A stretch of DNA of 7,455 bases from a bacterium (GTDB lineage: Bacteria; BMS3Abin14). Below are positions 166-7,277 of this stretch, one piece after another. How positions within the stretch are numbered: position 1 is the first letter of the stretch; each line of letters opens with the position of its first letter. Location: positions 1 to 7,455 of the forward strand of contig JARGFV010000117.1 of assembly GCA_029210545.1 (NCBI GenBank), in the 5' to 3' direction. A model generated the notes under the pieces. It was given only the letters and a program-made list of their open reading frames with translations. It made no database searches and was not told the DNA's origin. The translations under genes were made by a program, and so were the position numbers.

Positions 166-1254
166 ATGAGAGATGTGAAGGGAGCCGAAAAGGAACCCGG
201 AAAGAGAATTCCGGGTATCGACAGGGCCGTCTGGAAAACAGTTTTGGACCGGCTGACTGCCTCGGCCCTTGCTGTCGCTTTCGCCATGGGACTCGTTTTC
301 GCTACGCCGGTCACCGGCGCCGCTTTCAGGAATCTCACCAAGGGCGGACCTGTCCCCGACTTCACCCTGAAGGATCTCGAGGGGATGGACCGCACCCTGT
401 CCGCCGAAAAAGGCAAGGTCGTTGTCCTCGGGTTTGTCAAACCGGACCAGGATCGCTCCATAAAGGTGCTCAACGCCCTCGAAGAAGTGAGCGGCACCCT
501 GCTAAACGACGGGGTGACAGTGTGGGTCGTGTCGGCGAAGGCCGAGGACCCGGCGGCTATCAAGACTCTCGTGGAAAAGATGAGCCTCCAATACCCCATT
601 CTCGTGGACGAAGATCAGAAACTGTACGGCGAGTATGGGCTGTTCACTTTCCCTGTCACCGCGATCATCGACCAGGAGGGCAGCTTCGTCTTCGATTACT
701 CCTCCTACAGCGGCGATTACACCGAAACGATTGTCAACGAGGCGCGGATGCTCCTCGGGTTGATCAGCCGGGAGGAACTGGAAAAGAGCAGTGAGAAAAC
801 CGAGATCGTGGAAAAGAGCAAGGAGGAAAAGGAAGCCGACCGCGCCCTGCAGATGGGGAAAGTTCTCCTTGAAAGAGGGTTCGGGACCAAGGCGCTGCCC
901 AAATTCGAGCAGGCTCTTGCGCTGAACCCGTCCCTGGTCGAGGGAAGGCTCCTTTCCGGCGAGATCTACCTCAAAGAGGAACAGTACGACAAGGCCCGTG
1001 AACAGTTCGAGAAGGTCTTCGAGGTCGAGGCCAGCTCCAACGAGGCCCGGATCGGCATGGCTTCCGTCTTCATTGCCGAGGGGAAATTCGATGAAGCCGA
1101 GGAGCAGCTTCAGAAGGCAATCGCTCTTAACCCCGATCCCACCCTGGCTCTATACCGCCTCGGGCAGATCTACGAGAAGAAGAGTGATGTGCAAAAAGCC
1201 ATGGAAACCTACCGCAACGCGCTGGAGCGCGTATTGAAGAAATCGGGGAAATAG
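166..1254 (+). CDS. Secreted cysteine-free thioredoxin-fold (TlpA/AhpC-like) protein with C-terminal TPRs
   Basis: The protein has 362 residues from the ATG at 166, which follows a strong purine-rich RBS. A hydrophobic segment at about 25-48, after a basic stretch, is a probable signal peptide or membrane anchor, so the protein should lie in the periplasm. Residues 60-200 look like a TlpA/redoxin domain: PDFTLKDLEG near the start and TFPVTAIID with the fold's cis-proline (P163). The active-site position reads FVKPDQDRS (90-98), so the CXXC is gone, and there is no cysteine anywhere in the protein. A charged linker (about 205-225, with a 12-nt direct repeat at 779-790 and 809-820) leads to about four TPRs (226-358). 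It is a paralogue of the protein at 2389-3633, sharing GF-TKALP-FE and DYSSY/DLSSY. Its stop is 2 nt before the next start. It is probably a scaffold or chaperone for cytochrome assembly rather than a reductase; that role is inferred. Confidence 0.85.
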   Translation: MRDVKGAEKEPGKRIPGIDRAVWKTVLDRLTASALAVAFAMGLVFATPVTGAAFRNLTKGGPVPDFTLKDLEGMDRTLSAEKGKVVVLGFVKPDQDRSIKVLNALEEVSGTLLNDGVTVWVVSAKAEDPAAIKTLVEKMSLQYPILVDEDQKLYGEYGLFTFPVTAIIDQEGSFVFDYSSYSGDYTETIVNEARMLLGLISREELEKSSEKTEIVEKSKEEKEADRALQMGKVLLERGFGTKALPKFEQALALNPSLVEGRLLSGEIYLKEEQYDKAREQFEKVFEVEASSNEARIGMASVFIAEGKFDEAEEQLQKAIALNPDPTLALYRLGQIYEKKSDVQKAMETYRNALERVLKKSGK

Positions 1255-1256
1255 GG

Positions 1257-1952
1257 ATGACCTGGACTGTATCAGAAAAGATCACCACTGTGTTAATAGC
1301 GTTTGCCATCAGCCTTGTACCGGGAAGGGTCTTCGCCGGGGCCGAGTTCAGGATCCTGGCTCCGGCCGAGGAATCGTTCGTCGGCATGGAGGAAGTTCTC
1401 ATCATCGGGAAGGTCGATGGTTTCAGCGAAGCCAAGATGGTGGAAATTACCGATAACGGCAAGACCCTCGGGTTTGCCCCCCTCCAGAAAAACAGCTTCG
1501 TTTTCCGGTGGAAACTGGGCGAAGGCCGCCATGAGGTCGTTCTGACTGCTCCGGATATTGATCGCAAGGCCATCAAGGTGTTCGTCGGCAAGCAGAAGGG
1601 GTACCGCTACCACATCGAGACCGGAGAGGGTACCTGCGGCGAGTGTCATGCCGGCGCGGCGAAGCACGATTACGCTGTACCTCCCATGCAGGAAGAGATC
1701 TGTTCCAAGTGCCACGACGCCAAGGGAACGAAGGAGTTTGTCCATGGACCGGTTGCGGCTGCATCCTGCTCCCCGTGCCACGATCCGCACGGTTCCCGGT
1801 TCGCCGGCTTTCTCGTGGCAACGGGAAAGGACCTGTGCCTTGTCTGCCACAGCCAGAACCTGAGCAAGAAGCATATCGAGGAAAGACAGAACGCCGACTG
1901 TGTGAAATGTCACGATCCCCACAGCTCGGATAAAAACTATCATCTGCGCTAG
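1257..1952 (+). CDS. Periplasmic pentahaem c-type cytochrome (doubled-CXXCH type) with N-terminal Ig-like domain
   Basis: The protein has 231 residues. A signal peptide (about 1-27, ending VFA before GAEF) sends it to the periplasm. Residues 28-115 form a beta-rich, Ig-like region that ends just before the haem part; the 26-haem protein at 4986 has a similar region. Five CXXCH haem c sites follow: CGECH 127, CSKCH 149, CSPCH 171, CLVCH 194 and CVKCH 215. Their CHDPH and HGPV surroundings are typical of the doubled-CXXCH family, where extra histidines can be distal haem ligands. It should carry electrons, probably to or from neighbouring periplasmic partners. The start is 2 nt after the preceding stop, so the two genes are probably co-translated. 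The last codons, CGC TAG, overlap the end of an inverted-repeat element, so the native C-terminus may have been cut short or replaced. Confidence 0.93.
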   Translation: MTWTVSEKITTVLIAFAISLVPGRVFAGAEFRILAPAEESFVGMEEVLIIGKVDGFSEAKMVEITDNGKTLGFAPLQKNSFVFRWKLGEGRHEVVLTAPDIDRKAIKVFVGKQKGYRYHIETGEGTCGECHAGAAKHDYAVPPMQEEICSKCHDAKGTKEFVHGPVAAASCSPCHDPHGSRFAGFLVATGKDLCLVCHSQNLSKKHIEERQNADCVKCHDPHSSDKNYHLR

Positions 1953-2388: not shown

Positions 2389-3633
2389 ATGCGAAGAAAC
2401 GAGTATCGATTCATCGTCCGCCGCAGCCTGATGGCTGTGTTCCTTCTGATTCTCATGACCTTTTCGGTCACGGGCGCGGCAGCTGCCTTCAAGAATATAA
2501 AGGTCGGTGACCAGGGACTGCCGGTCCAGCTCAACGATCTCGATGGGCAGGAGCACTCCCTGGCCCGGTACAAGGATGCCGGCGCGGTTCTTATGCTTTT
2601 CTGGGCGACCTGGAGCCAGAAGTCCATCCTCGAGCTTGAAGATCTCCAGAAATTTCATGAACAGTACGGCGACAAGGGCCTTCAGGTGCTGGCCATCAAC
2701 GTGGAGAACCAGGATATCGATGATGAGGACCTGCGTCAGATCCGGGCAGTCATCGAGGAACACGGGATCGGGTTCCCGGTGCTCATCGACTACGGCTTGA
2801 AGACTTACAACGAATGGGGTGTCATCGCCACACCCACGGCCGCCATCGTGGACGGTGACGGTACGGTTTCATATGATCTTTCCAGCTATCCCACAAGTGC
2901 CTGCCAGGATATGGACGAGGCGATCCAGAAAGCCCTCGGACTGTGGGTGGAGGAGGTCGTGGCCGAGGATTCCGGACCGTCCTATAAGGCCACGAAGCTG
3001 GCGCTCCTGCACCTGGGCCTCGGCAAGCGTCATGCCGAGAAAGGGTTTATGACCAAGGCGCTTCCCGAGTTCGAGAAGGCGGCGGTGGCCGATTCCGGGT
3101 GGGCCGACCCCAACATCTACCTGGGGTTTGTCCACCTCCGGGAAGGGGATAACGACAAGGCGAAGGAGAGCCTGGAACGGGCGGCAAGATTGGATCCGGG
3201 GCGGGAGGAGACCACCCTCCTCACCGGCTACCTCCTGGTATCGGGGGAAAAGGTTGACGAGGCGATCGCTTTATTGCAAGGTGGTGAGCCTCTGGTTTCG
3301 CAGGCTCCCGATCCGTCAGACCCTGCAAAACCAGAGGCTGATATTTCACCTGCCGATGTTGAACCGGTGAAATCCAGTGATGAAGGCTCGCCGGTTGCGG
3401 AAGTTGGGCCGCCCGATGAAACGGCTTCCGGAGGGAAACCCGCAAGACTGATCGACCTTTCCGAAGTCCTGGCCCTGCAGGCTGACGGGAAGGCCTCGGA
3501 GGCCGCTTCCGCCCTCGAACAGCTCCTGACTGCAAGGCTCGGGGAACTCGGTTTCACCATGGAGAAGAAAAAGAAGGTGGACGCCATGGAAAAGATGAGG
3601 CTCATGATGCAGAAGAAACAGCAGGGGCAGTAG
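2389..3633 (+). CDS. Secreted TlpA-like thioredoxin-fold protein with CXXC replaced by SXXS, plus TPRs
   Basis: The protein has 414 residues; GAGG at 2378-2381 lies 7 nt before the ATG. A signal peptide (about 1-33, ending TGAAAA) makes it periplasmic. Residues 35-186 form a TlpA/ResA-like domain with FWATW (71-75), VLAINVE and a cis-Pro at ATPT (P149). The active site reads W-S76-Q-K-S79 where TlpA reductases have WCxxC, so both redox cysteines are serine. The only cysteine is C172. About three TPR-like units follow (203-298), then an acidic, proline-rich linker (about 300-350) and a helical, lysine/methionine-rich tail. The linker is encoded by strong palindromes, listed separately. The fold and TPR layout match the 166-1254 protein. 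A disulfide-reductase role is unlikely; binding or scaffolding is inferred. The next gene starts 1 nt after its stop. Confidence 0.87.
   Translation: MRRNEYRFIVRRSLMAVFLLILMTFSVTGAAAAFKNIKVGDQGLPVQLNDLDGQEHSLARYKDAGAVLMLFWATWSQKSILELEDLQKFHEQYGDKGLQVLAINVENQDIDDEDLRQIRAVIEEHGIGFPVLIDYGLKTYNEWGVIATPTAAIVDGDGTVSYDLSSYPTSACQDMDEAIQKALGLWVEEVVAEDSGPSYKATKLALLHLGLGKRHAEKGFMTKALPEFEKAAVADSGWADPNIYLGFVHLREGDNDKAKESLERAARLDPGREETTLLTGYLLVSGEKVDEAIALLQGGEPLVSQAPDPSDPAKPEADISPADVEPVKSSDEGSPVAEVGPPDETASGGKPARLIDLSEVLALQADGKASEAASALEQLLTARLGELGFTMEKKKKVDAMEKMRLMMQKKQQGQ
3287..3339. repeat. Intragenic palindrome in the linker of the thioredoxin/TPR gene
   Basis: AGCCTCTGGTTTCGCAGG (3287-3304) is the reverse complement of 3322-3339 at 17 of 18 positions, with a 17-nt loop. 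It lies inside the 2389-3633 frame and encodes the start of a proline/acidic linker between the TPRs and the C-terminal helix. It looks like a palindromic element that has been accommodated in frame. Confidence 0.7.
3343..3373. repeat. Second intragenic palindrome, adjacent
   Basis: ATTTCACC (3343-3350) pairs perfectly with GGTGAAAT (3366-3373) around a 15-nt loop. It follows the preceding palindrome by 3 nt and lies in the same linker. A weaker 6-bp pair, CGGAAG 3398-3403 with CTTCCG 3425-3430, continues the pattern. Confidence 0.55.
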
Positions 3634-3634
3634 G

Positions 3635-3778
3635 ATGAGATATCTAAGGTACGGCATAAAGCTGCTCCTGGTCCTCGCCGGCGCGGCGGCCCTGTACGCG
3701 GGAGTCGTCCAGGGAGAATGGGGCGAGACCATGTTCAACGCCACCCTCCTCTGACTGTCCTGCATCGGGGTCGGGTGA
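3635..3778 (+). CDS. Candidate selenoprotein: 47-aa single-pass membrane microprotein with UXXC, CD1871A-family-like
   Basis: The ATG at 3635 is 1 nt after the previous stop, with GGGG at 3624-3627 as RBS. Read conventionally, the frame ends at TGA 3752-3754 after 39 residues. If that TGA is selenocysteine, the protein continues U40-L-S-C43-I-G-V-G and stops at TGA 3776-3778. Residues 8-25 are one hydrophobic membrane segment preceded by arginine, tyrosine and lysine. The segment is followed by GEWGETMFNATLL and the UXXC end. From memory, proteins annotated 'CD1871A family CXXC motif-containing' are about 45 residues long, have one membrane segment then G-E, and end in a C-x-x-C-I-G-x-G motif. 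This frame matches that plan exactly, with Sec in place of the first cysteine. Neighbouring TlpA-like and NapH-like genes fit the same family. A hairpin in SECIS position supports recoding. Alternatives are a nonsense mutation or a base error turning TGC or TGT into TGA. Confidence 0.72.
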
Positions 3779-3783
3779 CCCTG
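3752..3783 (+). promoter_or_regulatory. Candidate bacterial SECIS (Sec UGA plus downstream hairpin)
   Basis: The UGA is at 3752-3754. Eleven nt later, 3766-3772 pairs with 3777-3783: C-G, G-U, G-C, G-C, G-C, U-A, C-G. The 4-nt loop is GGGU (3773-3776). Eighteen nt separate the UGA from the loop, and the first loop base is G. This fits the usual bacterial SECIS rules as I know them: a stem-loop just after UGA with an early loop G, and about 11 nt to the minimal hairpin in E. coli fdhF. CTGACT 3751-3756 can also pair with AGTCAG 3785-3790 to form a lower stem that includes the UGA. Confidence 0.6.
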
Positions 3784-3882
3784 TAGTCAGGGACGTCGGA
3801 AGATCGGTCTGTCCCCCGGGAAAGGGAGAGGGGGCGAAAAGGAGAGTGGGGGAACCGCGATCCCTGCTGCTCTTTGGCGTCC

Positions 3883-3918
3883 TTCCGGACATCACACTGT
3901 AGGCGTGATGAGCCGGAA
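3883..3918. repeat. REP-like hairpin
   Basis: TTCCGG (3883-3888) pairs with CCGGAA (3913-3918), and CATCAC (3890-3895) with GTGATG (3905-3910). Together they give a 12-bp stem with a small internal loop and a 9-nt cap. The right flank, GCCGGAATCCAGAA, resembles the widespread proteobacterial REP motif of the GCGGGAATCCAG type. No T-run follows, so I do not call it a terminator. Confidence 0.5.
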
Positions 3919-3926
3919 TCCAGAAT

Positions 3927-4099
3927 AAAAGCCTTAACGCGATAGAGTTGCGCAGAGGCGGCTCACTGGGAGGCCGCGTGGACCGCAGGGTTACGCAGTT
4001 AAGAGCTTTCCAATCCTTGACTGCTTGGTTTAACCGCGGCCCCCTGCGGCAGCGCCTGAAAGACGGCGCTATCGGCGGCCCTATGCGTTACAGCTTTTA
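3927..4099. repeat. Two-hairpin inverted-repeat element between the microprotein and polyferredoxin genes
   Basis: The 350 bases 3779-4128 have no gene. AAAAGCCTTAACGCGATAG (3927-3945) recurs in diverged inverted form at 4081-4099 (AAAAGCTGTAACGCATAG on the - strand). A first long hairpin is formed by AAAGCCTTAAC 3928-3938 with 3998-4009 (one bulged A), with GCGGC 3958-3962/3973-3977 inside it. A second is formed by AGCGCC 4051-4056/4065-4070, with TAAC-GC 4031-4037 against GCGTTA 4085-4090 outside. It could be a BIME or MITE, or a structured RNA. The stretch 3815-3856 before it is purine-rich and featureless. Confidence 0.4.
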
Positions 4100-4112
4100 A
4101 ACATCTCAAAAC

Positions 4113-4118
4113 AGGAGG
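4113..4118 (+). promoter_or_regulatory. Ribosome binding site fixing a TTG start
   Basis: A perfect AGGAGG lies 10 nt before TTG 4129. An in-frame TAG at 4123-4125 excludes any start further upstream, so TTG is the best start. Confidence 0.75.
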
Positions 4119-4128
4119 CCTCTAGCCC

Positions 4129-4971
4129 TTGCATAGGCTGCTGTTCAGACGCATCATCCAGTCATCCCTCGGGTTGGGCATCACCAACGGCTACCTCAAG
4201 GGGTTCATCCCTCCCGGGACCCTCTGGCAGGGCCAGTCCAGGGGGCTCTGTGTTCCGGCCCTCAACTGCTACGCCTGCCCGGGATCGATCTTCGCCTGTC
4301 CCATCGGCACCCTCCAGCACTTCGTCATCATCCGTGCCGTCCCCATGTATTTCGCCGGATTATTTATCACCTTCTGCATGGCCATAGGGCGGATGGCCTG
4401 CGGCACGATATGTCCTTTCGGGTACCTGCAGGAGATCCTTTACAAGTTTCGCTCCTCCAAGCTGCGGATACCCGGCTGGATGACCTATATCAAGTACGCT
4501 GTCCTGGCCGGGCTCGTGTTCGCCATCCCCTTCTACACACTCCAGCCCTGGTTCTCCAAGCTCTGTCCAGTGGGCACTCTCATCGGCGGCCTGCCCTGGG
4601 TGACCGTCAACCAGGAGATCCGCCTCATGATCCACGAGCTTTTCTGGGTCAAGATCGCCATCCTCATCACGGTGGTCTCTTTCTCAGCGCTTTCCAAGCG
4701 CCCCTTCTGCCGGGTGATCTGCCCTCTCGGAGCCATTTTCAGCCTCTTTAACCGCGTCAGCGTCCTGAGGCTTTCGTGGAATGAGTCCGAATGTTTCCAC
4801 TGCGACAAATGCACCAGGATCTGTCCCATGGACATCTCGGTTTACAAGGACGCCAACAACCACAACTGCATCCGGTGCCTGGACTGCTCCCAGTGCCCGG
4901 CTGTTTCGGTGGTGGTGGGACCGGGCAAGCTCCGGGAACCGGTTACAGAACCTGCAGCGGACGTTGCCTGA
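4129..4971 (+). CDS. NapH/CcoG-type membrane polyferredoxin with two 4Fe-4S motifs
   Basis: The protein has 280 residues from a TTG start. Hydrophobic segments lie at about 68-88, 120-137, 148-160 and 170-187. Cysteine pairs typical of NapH-like proteins are spread through the membrane part: NCYACPG (46-51), ACPIG (56-60), CGTICPFG (91-98), CPVG (146-149) and CRVICPLG (194-201). The C-terminal part carries a classic ferredoxin motif, C222-x2-C225-x2-C228-x3-C232-P. A second motif is C247-x2-C250-x2-C253-x2-C256-P, one residue shorter than usual before the last cysteine. Proteins of this class pass electrons between the quinone pool or cytoplasmic donors and periplasmic partners. Its place just before a 26-haem cytochrome fits a feeder role, which is inferred. 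NapH itself is not claimed, since no other nap genes are present. Confidence 0.9.
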   Translation: MHRLLFRRIIQSSLGLGITNGYLKGFIPPGTLWQGQSRGLCVPALNCYACPGSIFACPIGTLQHFVIIRAVPMYFAGLFITFCMAIGRMACGTICPFGYLQEILYKFRSSKLRIPGWMTYIKYAVLAGLVFAIPFYTLQPWFSKLCPVGTLIGGLPWVTVNQEIRLMIHELFWVKIAILITVVSFSALSKRPFCRVICPLGAIFSLFNRVSVLRLSWNESECFHCDKCTRICPMDISVYKDANNHNCIRCLDCSQCPAVSVVVGPGKLREPVTEPAADVA

Positions 4972-4985
4972 TTCTGGACTGACTG

Positions 4986-7277
4986 ATGCCTGGGATCTCG
5001 CTCCTGCGCCTCCTCAATGCCTGCAGCCCTGAAAGCTTCCGCCACCGGGAAAACCCCTTCAATTTGTGTAATATTTTCGGATCCTTTCTCGCCGGGGTCC
5101 TCGTTCTCATTTCTGTGATCACCCTGACTGTCGATCCATCCCCGGCTGCCGCCCAGTGCGAGGTCATCTTCCCCCTGGACAAGACTTCTGTGGACCTCGG
5201 CACCACAACGGTCTTCGGCCTGGTCTGTGAACCGGACCATATGCCCAGGATCACCCTGAACCGGGGGGGGATCATACCCCGGCTGTACCCCAACGGGACC
5301 TTTCGCCAGTCCATGGTCCTCAAGCGGGGCGTCAATATCCTCAAGGTGGACAACCGGCGCTACTTTCTCTCCTTCGACCCCCCCGGGGAGAAGCCGGCCA
5401 AGGGGTATATAAGGAGAGCCATCCACGTGCCGGTGGAAGAGGATTGCGGGAACTGCCACGATTTTTCGGTGCCCGGGAAGACGGAGCTCCTCGCCAAAGG
5501 GAAGAAACTTTGCCTGGAGTGTCACGACGACCCTGCCGAGGGGTTGTCCCACCTCCACGGGGCCCTGGAAGAGGGGTGCACGGCGTGCCATGATCCCCAC
5601 GTCTGGGATGAGGGGAGCCCGCTTGAAAAGAGCGTTCCCGAGCTATGCTACGGCTGCCACGACACGGTGACGGCGGGCAAACACGTCCACGATCCGGCGG
5701 CTGAGGGGGAGTGCGGCTCTTGCCACGATCCCCACGGTTCCAACAACCCGGGGCTGCTCGTCGCCGCTGCAAATGACCTGTGCCTGAAGTGCCACGACGA
5801 TCCGGTGGCCGGACGGAAGAATGTTCACCAGGCGCTGGAGGAAGGGTGCCTGGGCTGTCACACTCCCCACTCGTCCGGATCTTCCAAACTCACCGTAGCT
5901 GCCGGTACCGGCCTGTGCCTCCGTTGCCACGACGACCCGGTGGCGGGAAAAGCCGTGACCCACGAAGCCCTGGGGGAGGGGTGCACGGCGTGCCACGATC
6001 CCCACGCATCCTCCGGGGGCAAACTGCTGGCCGGGGAGCAGGCCGCGGTGTGCGGGGAATGCCACGACGACATCCTGCCCGATGGGCCGGGTGTCCGCGG
6101 CCACTCGCCCATCTCCGACGACGGTGAATGCACGCCTTGCCACGATCCCCATGCGTCGGGATCGAGGGGGCTTCTTCTTCAAAAGACCCCGGCCCTTTGC
6201 TACGAGTGCCACGACGTCGTCTCCGCCGGGGCGGGGGCCAGGGGGGTCGTTCACTCGCCGGTGGAGGAGGGGAGGTGCACCGACTGCCACAACCCCCACG
6301 GCGGCCCGTCCGCGCTGTTCGTGGCAAAAGAGCTGTGCGCCGAATGCCACGATCCTTTCAAGGCGCCGGACAAGGGCAGCATCCACGATCCGGTGTCCGG
6401 CGGCGAGTGCGGCGAGTGCCATGCGGCCCACGCTTCACAGCACCCCTCCCTGCTGAAGGCCGAGGGGACGGCGCTCTGCTACACTTGTCACGATAAGTTT
6501 GAAGGAGAGATGATCCACTCCCCAATAGCCGACGACGATTCGTGTACCAAATGCCACGACCCCCACGCGGGCAGCGACAAACACCTTCTGCCCAAATCCG
6601 GCATGGCCCTTTGCCTGGAGTGCCACGCCAACCCGGCCAACCCCTACAACCCTGACAACAAGATCATTCACTCCCCCATAGGAGACGACAAGGAATGCAC
6701 CCCGTGCCACTCTCCCCACGCCGGTGAGAAAAACATGCTGGTAGAGCGTCAGCCGGCCCTCTGCTACCAGTGCCACGACAACATGACCCTTAAAAGGGAC
6801 GGCAGGGAGTACGCGTACATCCACGGCCCGGTCAACTTCGGAGGGTGCACCGGCTGCCACGGCCCCCATGCGGCCAGGGAGCGTTTCCTCCTCGGTGAAA
6901 AGGGGAGCAATGTCTGCCTGGCCTGCCACGACAATCCTTCCGTTGACAAGGAGGGCAAACCCTGGGTATCCAGACATCCGCCGGTGGAGGAAAACTGTGC
7001 TCTGTGCCATACTCCCCACGCCTCGGACTTCAAGGGGATCATGAAAAAAGCTGTTTTTGACCTTTGTTTTTCCTGTCATCAGGAACATCCAGCTCATAGT
7101 CTTGATGCCGGCAGAGTTTTGTCTGGACAGACCAGAACTGCCCACCTGCCGAAGGGTCTTGCGGTTACCCGCGATGAGATGATGGTCTGCACGGCATGCC
7201 ACGTTCCCCACGGCGGATCCCATGCCCCGCTGTTTCCCGAGGAACGGATGCAGGTGTGCGCCAGGTGCCACGGTTGA
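4986..7277 (+). CDS. Exported 26-haem c-type cytochrome (doubled-CXXCH repeats)
   Basis: The protein has 763 residues. The ATG is 14 nt after the previous stop, but no clear Shine-Dalgarno precedes it, so it may be coupled or may start slightly downstream (for example TTG near 5062). A hydrophobic segment (about 30-48) ending in PAAAQ is the signal peptide. Residues 57-145 are a beta-rich region like that of the 5-haem protein. I count 26 CXXCH sites from CGNCH (154) to CARCH (758), ending one residue before the C-terminus. They alternate between an LCxxCHD type and a CxxCHDPH type, making about 13 doubled units of roughly 45 residues. Histidines in H-[SGD]-P-[IV] and in DPH are likely distal haem ligands. 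Near-identical DNA at 5571-5601 and 5976-6006 (30 of 31) points to expansion by duplication. It should form a long electron wire in the periplasm or outside the cell. No porin gene is in view. Confidence 0.93.
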   Translation: MPGISLLRLLNACSPESFRHRENPFNLCNIFGSFLAGVLVLISVITLTVDPSPAAAQCEVIFPLDKTSVDLGTTTVFGLVCEPDHMPRITLNRGGIIPRLYPNGTFRQSMVLKRGVNILKVDNRRYFLSFDPPGEKPAKGYIRRAIHVPVEEDCGNCHDFSVPGKTELLAKGKKLCLECHDDPAEGLSHLHGALEEGCTACHDPHVWDEGSPLEKSVPELCYGCHDTVTAGKHVHDPAAEGECGSCHDPHGSNNPGLLVAAANDLCLKCHDDPVAGRKNVHQALEEGCLGCHTPHSSGSSKLTVAAGTGLCLRCHDDPVAGKAVTHEALGEGCTACHDPHASSGGKLLAGEQAAVCGECHDDILPDGPGVRGHSPISDDGECTPCHDPHASGSRGLLLQKTPALCYECHDVVSAGAGARGVVHSPVEEGRCTDCHNPHGGPSALFVAKELCAECHDPFKAPDKGSIHDPVSGGECGECHAAHASQHPSLLKAEGTALCYTCHDKFEGEMIHSPIADDDSCTKCHDPHAGSDKHLLPKSGMALCLECHANPANPYNPDNKIIHSPIGDDKECTPCHSPHAGEKNMLVERQPALCYQCHDNMTLKRDGREYAYIHGPVNFGGCTGCHGPHAARERFLLGEKGSNVCLACHDNPSVDKEGKPWVSRHPPVEENCALCHTPHASDFKGIMKKAVFDLCFSCHQEHPAHSLDAGRVLSGQTRTAHLPKGLAVTRDEMMVCTACHVPHGGSHAPLFPEERMQVCARCHG

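Follow-up and report, generated by a model that had tools for sequence, protein, structure and literature searches.

A CD1871A-type membrane microprotein with a probable selenocysteine in its C-terminal motif, encoded beside a NapH-like gene among multihaem cytochromes

The described system closest to the gene reported here is the CD1871A group of microproteins (NCBIfam NF040920). Both are short membrane proteins with an end of the C-x-x-C-I-G-x-G type, and in nearly all sampled members a NapH-like gene lies directly downstream. The typical CD1871A tail is KAxxICLECIGIG, whereas the tail found here is of the FNATLLULSCIGVG type, in which the first Cys is replaced by a putative selenocysteine (Sec) and a SECIS-type element lies over the stop codon. 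The window, that is, the whole stretch of 7,455 nucleotides that we analysed, carries one such gene within a cytochrome locus. The likeness to CD1871A, to which an earlier note on this DNA had pointed, is genuine: the microprotein matches NF040920 over the full profile length (1-38) with E=2.5e-5, but its score of 24.1 bits lies below the curated cut-off of 32, and we therefore treat it as a relative of CD1871A without filing it as a member. All 17 alignment members matched the same profile. Where CD1871A proteins carry a C-terminal CXXC, the window microprotein has UXXC, Sec standing for the first Cys. The NapH-like neighbour (4129-4971) is common to the window microprotein and CD1871A, a resemblance observed here that lies outside the NF040920 model.

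A microprotein gene split by an in-frame TGA

The features of the gene are as follows.

3635..3778 (stop included), + strand: gene for a 47-residue membrane microprotein with a putative Sec, from the translation with TGA as U and from 36 TGA and 32 Cys homologues
3752..3754, + strand: UGA almost certainly read as selenocysteine, residue 40 and first position of UxxC, aligned with TGC/TGT in Cys homologues and with TGA in 36 Sec homologues
3776..3778, + strand: true stop codon (TGA); the U falls in the loop of the hairpin, the GA in its stem
3766..3783, + strand: SECIS-type apical hairpin CGGGGUC-GGGU-GACCCUG overlapping the true stop (7 bp, -10.6 kcal/mol; covariation)

Translation of 3635-3778 with TGA as U gave MRYLRYGIKLLLVLAGAAALYAGVVQGEWGETMFNATLLULSCIGVG, followed by a second TGA as stop. 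The earlier note had described an in-frame TGA that splits a micro-gene ending in U-L-S-C-I-G-V-G, and this description proved exact. It had also warned that standard gene callers would cut the product at 39 residues; under the standard code the frame does end after 39 amino acids, and the whole C-terminal motif is lost. A single nucleotide separates the ATG from the TAG (3631-3633) that ends the upstream gene, and an AGGGG lies 5' of the ATG. Because TGA is the normal stop for other genes of the window (the NapH-like gene and the large cytochrome gene), the reading of codon 40 does not reflect a general change of code. Hydropathy and charge predict one N-terminal transmembrane helix in an N-in/C-out orientation, which would place the tail in the periplasm. 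Longer forms with a second predicted N-terminal transmembrane helix (MENWLEFWEL...) were seen in L050 (5890-6135) and likewise in L051, L052 and L053.

The window comes from a small phylum, of which 12 genomes, all from one family, were searched, and we found a member of the microprotein family in 10 of the 12. In nine of these 10 genomes, the window's own among them, the gene has one TGA, located at codon 40 as in the window, and the other eight TGA members share 56-75% identity with the window microprotein. A wider scan of a genome collection, for which the query was the microprotein alignment with X at the Sec codon, returned further members from Deltaproteobacteria, Deferrisomatales and one MAG labelled Poribacteria. 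In the phylum of one Deltaproteobacteria-type relative, a member was found in 86 of 345 sampled genomes, with a TGA-bearing copy in 29 of those 86 by table count. After removal of duplicates, the comparison set held 36 Sec-type (TGA) and 32 Cys-type (TGC/TGT) sequences, so that the in-frame UGA at codon 40 aligns with Cys in 32 homologues and with UGA in 36. A homologue search with X at codon 40 had been proposed in the earlier note, and its outcome was TGA or TGC/TGT at the codon together with conserved residues beyond it.

Downstream of the TGA, codon variation across the 36 Sec genes is almost wholly synonymous. Leu is written as CTG, CTT, CTC or CTA, Ser as TCC, TCG, TCA, TCT, AGC or AGT, Cys as TGC or TGT, and Ile as ATC, ATA or ATT; the sole amino-acid changes are two of Ser to His, one of Ser to Thr and two of Val to Ile. 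Judged from these sequences, a TGA at the homologous codon in 36 distinct genes is far beyond chance. Misreading of TGC or TGT as TGA through sequencing error is excluded in practice, as many independent assemblies carry the TGA.

We examined the history of the two forms on a tree built from the NapH-like proteins encoded near the microprotein. The Sec loci fell into a main group that also contained two Cys loci (L110 and L112), with a single Sec locus (L057) outside it, a pattern that forces at least three changes between Sec and Cys. Since the tree was rooted arbitrarily and has long branches, the direction of these changes can only be inferred. In the Cys-type locus L112 (608-634), which lies inside the Sec clade, five of the six stem pairs of the hairpin are left and GTC is changed to ATC, which looks like a SECIS decayed after reversion from Sec to Cys.

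A hairpin over the true stop codon and the Sec decoding machinery

The hairpin places a GGGU tetraloop 18 nt after the UGA on the stem GGGGUC/GACCCY, and a wider fold (3756-3795) reaches -19.5 kcal/mol with a z of -2.2. It has been reported that bacterial SECIS (bSECIS) elements have a loop of 3-9 nt, a stem of 4-16 bp and a G in the first two loop positions, lie 16-37 nt from the UGA and have an MFE of -7.5 or lower (PMC13188914). The check for a bacterial SECIS suggested in the earlier note came out positive under these rules (PMC13188914): the window element has the loop GGGU (4 nt, G first), 7 bp, a spacing of 18 nt and -10.6 kcal/mol. On the bare stem, 23 of the 36 Sec members pass the energy line and 9 more stand at -7.4, compared with 0 of 32 Cys members. 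A search of the window against Rfam gave no match.

Comparison of the two sets of genes separated them sharply. With the register fixed, all six stem pairs formed in 33/36 Sec genes versus 0/32 Cys genes, and pairing held in 99% of cells in register versus 31-66% when the partner was slid. Two stem pairs are altered on both sides, a compensatory change. The spacing from UGA to hairpin is nearly always 18 nt among Sec members, and of the 13,758 TGA triplets found elsewhere in these loci, 54 have such a hairpin. Furthermore, the true stop is TGA in 33 of the 36 Sec genes, its GA completing the stem, whereas TAA, TAG and TGA all occur as stops among the Cys genes. In the divergent member L084 the hairpin reads GGAAUC-GGUU-GAUUCC, two Sec members with TAA stops retain five pairs, and L057, with a TAG stop, has a shifted stem; the weak hairpins of L111, L113, L084 and L057 were counted against the Sec reading.

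The earlier note had pointed to Sec genes in the same genome, and most of these were present. The window's genome (G000) has a tRNA-Sec (74.3 bits) and adjacent selA (577.8 bits) and selB (363.2 bits) genes. No selD was found in this 241-contig draft, which we counted against the Sec reading; only two weak matches were seen there, and by sequence and neighbours these look like ThiL and HypE. Clear SelD proteins, each with one in-frame TGA, were found in the relatives G001, G003, G004, G007, G009 and G011, and tRNA-Sec scored above cut-off in every tested genome with an intact Sec member. In an unrelated genome (G115; L084:1366-1614) the ATG of the microprotein gene lies 8 nt downstream of the tRNA-Sec gene on the same strand, and the two are probably co-transcribed; no NapH-like gene was seen there within the flanks examined.

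Taken together, the 36 TGA and 32 Cys homologues, the hairpin confined to Sec genes, and the tRNA-Sec, selA and selB of the genome support the proposal of a hidden selenoprotein. On this comparative evidence, SelB and tRNA-Sec almost certainly insert Sec at UGA-40 under the direction of the hairpin, which starts within the last codons and extends past the true stop. Were the UGA a genuine stop, the product would have 39 residues and the downstream match would be a remnant or a coincidence at the DNA level. The standard code and the selD not seen in the window's assembly fit that account. Against it, the one relative whose copy has lost the ULSCIGVG tail (G010; L055:4940-5160), its frame ending just before the NapH-like gene, has a genome that is 71% complete and in which tRNA-Sec was not detected; the loss could be real or an assembly fault. 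The post-TGA residues kept through synonymous changes in 36 sequences, the Sec-specific hairpin and the Sec machinery leave a genuine stop very improbable. We consider it slightly more improbable still that the hairpin is a transcription terminator or another regulatory stem and that a different amino acid is inserted at the UGA: although a stable G+C-rich stem near a gene end would suit a terminator, no T-run follows the stem in the window, the stem is absent from 32/32 Cys homologues at the same gene end, its distance from the UGA is nearly constant, and TGA stops other genes of the window.

Neighbouring genes and a proposed electron route

The microprotein gene is flanked by genes for redoxin, Fe-S and cytochrome proteins.

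166..1254, + strand: second redoxin-TPR protein, with zero cysteines (domain matches; Cys count)
1257..1952, + strand: five-haem c-type cytochrome (Paired_CXXCH_1, 70 bits; 5 CxxCH)
2389..3633, + strand: redoxin (ResA-like) domain fused to TPR, with SxxS (WATWSQKS) for CxxC (AhpC-TSA, 65 bits; TPR matches)
4129..4971, + strand: NapH-like membrane Fe-S protein, start codon uncertain (Fer4_5, 57.6 bits; NapH TIGR02163, 50.9 bits)
4986..7277, + strand: multihaem c-type cytochrome with 26 CxxCH motifs (Paired_CXXCH_1, 451 bits; motif count)

No neighbour accompanies the family more constantly than the NapH-like gene, which lies near 28 of the 36 Sec and 27 of the 32 Cys members. At 50.9 bits against a curated TIGR02163 cut-off of 213, its product is NapH-like and not NapH. 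It has 16 near-invariant Cys, eight of them in a ferredoxin part of the two-[4Fe-4S] type; the other eight (47, 50, 57, 91, 95, 146, 194 and 198) include N-C-Y-x-C-P-x5-C-P. Solved structures matched a structure model of the protein (pLDDT 80) mainly, and weakly, in the ferredoxin-like part (209-265), and the absence of a convincing match of its membrane part to solved structures proves nothing. Between the microprotein and the NapH-like gene lies a 350-nt gap (3779-4128) with no evident gene; in L014 the two genes are much closer. A search for repeats in the two long intergenic gaps of the window found none.

The earlier note had placed the microprotein between a thioredoxin-fold gene and a NapH-like gene; these positions are right, but the thioredoxin-fold gene is thiol-inactive. 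Its redoxin (2389-3633) has one Cys in 414 amino acids and lacks the CxxC of ResA/TlpA, and with SxxS in its place this neighbour is not thiol-active. Redoxin-type genes are present in 27/36 Sec loci, and in 14 of the redoxin-bearing ones, the window included, the active site is SxxS, or once SxxA, for CxxC. Sequence comparison thus suggests that redoxin-TPR proteins without active-site Cys form a thioredoxin-fold scaffold, conserved but redox-dead, that is associated with cytochromes and with the microprotein. Elsewhere the thioredoxin-fold neighbours keep CxxC or are of the Thioredoxin_7, DsbC-like or AhpC-TSA type, and such genes recur beside both Sec and Cys members. In several relatives the gene directly upstream of the microprotein encodes CcsB, a protein of cytochrome c biogenesis by system II, a pathway that requires reduced apocytochrome thiols.

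From this gene context, the membrane redox step proposed in the earlier note is plausible. In the mechanism that we propose, the UxxC tail would undergo reversible Se-S chemistry on the periplasmic face, and the NapH-like Fe-S membrane protein encoded nearby would feed electrons to the selenol-thiol pair. The pair would pass them on to periplasmic disulfides, those of thioredoxin-fold partners where CxxC is kept or, in cytochrome operons, those formed by the CxxCH thiols of apocytochromes, or those of their assembly factors, with a probable use in cytochrome c maturation. The microprotein and the NapH-like protein together might then act as CcdA or DsbD do, by a different route. We give about even chances to this role, the direction of electron flow included. 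As a whole, a selenoprotein working in a periplasmic selenol-thiol relay from the NapH-like protein seems the best explanation, somewhat more probable than all others combined.

Both redoxin neighbours in the window lack CxxC, so that no thiol partner is seen there, and this counts against the relay. The same observation favours an alternative to which we assign a minor but appreciable probability: the protein would still be a selenoprotein, and its UxxC tail would bind a metal or Fe-S cluster or dock as a small subunit of the NapH-like protein, with no electron shuttling to disulfides. The NapH-like gene is indeed a more constant neighbour than any thiol protein, and its product has extra conserved Cys; yet thioredoxin-fold genes recur beside members of both kinds, and UxxC is a frequent redox motif of selenoproteins (PMC13188914). 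A system that oxidises periplasmic thiols or senses redox state, its selenol or thiol electrons passing to the NapH-like protein and the quinone pool, appears distinctly unlikely. The electron exchange of NapH-type proteins with the quinol pool counts for such a system, and the gene context is compatible with either direction of flow, but the association with CcsB, TlpA/ResA and DsbC-like proteins favours a reductive role. Extending the relay reading, we propose tentatively, and with more doubt than confidence, that the multi-cluster NapH-like Fe-S protein and the U/CxxC microprotein may form a previously undescribed membrane electron conduit, which would supply the periplasm with selenol-based reductant for maturing or repairing many-haem cytochromes, together with the redox-dead SxxS thioredoxin-fold TPR scaffold and independently of CcdA/DsbD.

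Comparison with described selenoproteins and thiol-reducing systems

We regard the microprotein as a Sec-bearing version of an already described group of Cys microproteins (CD1871A-type) that is new relative to the published selenoprotein catalogues that we compared. The family is absent from the 2022 table of 87 selenoprotein families (PMC9312934) and from the 2026 table of 119 (PMC13188914), which includes the families of Haft & Gwadz 2023 and Haft & Tolstoy 2025, and it is not named among the new families of deep-Sep (PMC12013277). A literature search for CD1871A gave no match. We attribute its having stayed hidden to its tiny size, to the false stop at which it ends and to a SECIS that lies over the true stop codon. 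The finding adds a family, widespread among diverse bacteria, beyond the 2022 and 2026 catalogues. It also gives a functional clue to the uncharacterised CD1871A-type microproteins, which have the NapH-like gene as a constant partner: occurrence of the motif with Sec implies that their first Cys takes part in redox chemistry. The route by which electrons arrive at periplasmic thiols in many-haem bacteria thereby becomes open to direct test.

Two listed groups resemble the microprotein in part. TsoA, the LULAxC selenoprotein (NF045695), shares the short L-U-L string but has LULAxC where the microprotein has LULSCIGVG, and 0/17 members matched it in an NCBIfam scan with E up to 10. The KCU-star and UXX-star selenoproteins (NF033934, NF041114) presumably share with it a Sec near the C-terminus that gene callers easily miss; they gave no match in the NCBIfam scan, and here the motif is UxxC, in a membrane protein that has one helix and is partnered by a NapH-like protein. 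TsoA and both star families appear in the 2026 table (PMC13188914).

The proposed likeness to CcdA/DsbD lies in moving reducing equivalents through the membrane for use by thioredoxin-fold proteins of the periplasm and in cytochrome c maturation. No sequence relation between these proteins and the microprotein was found. A CcdA/DsbD-type (DsbD_TM) protein was not detected in the window's own genome, but DsbD_TM is present in G007, G009, G011 and many other genomes with Sec members. This coexistence in relatives rules out the microprotein as a simple replacement for CcdA; the microprotein route would therefore be additional or parallel to that of CcdA/DsbD.
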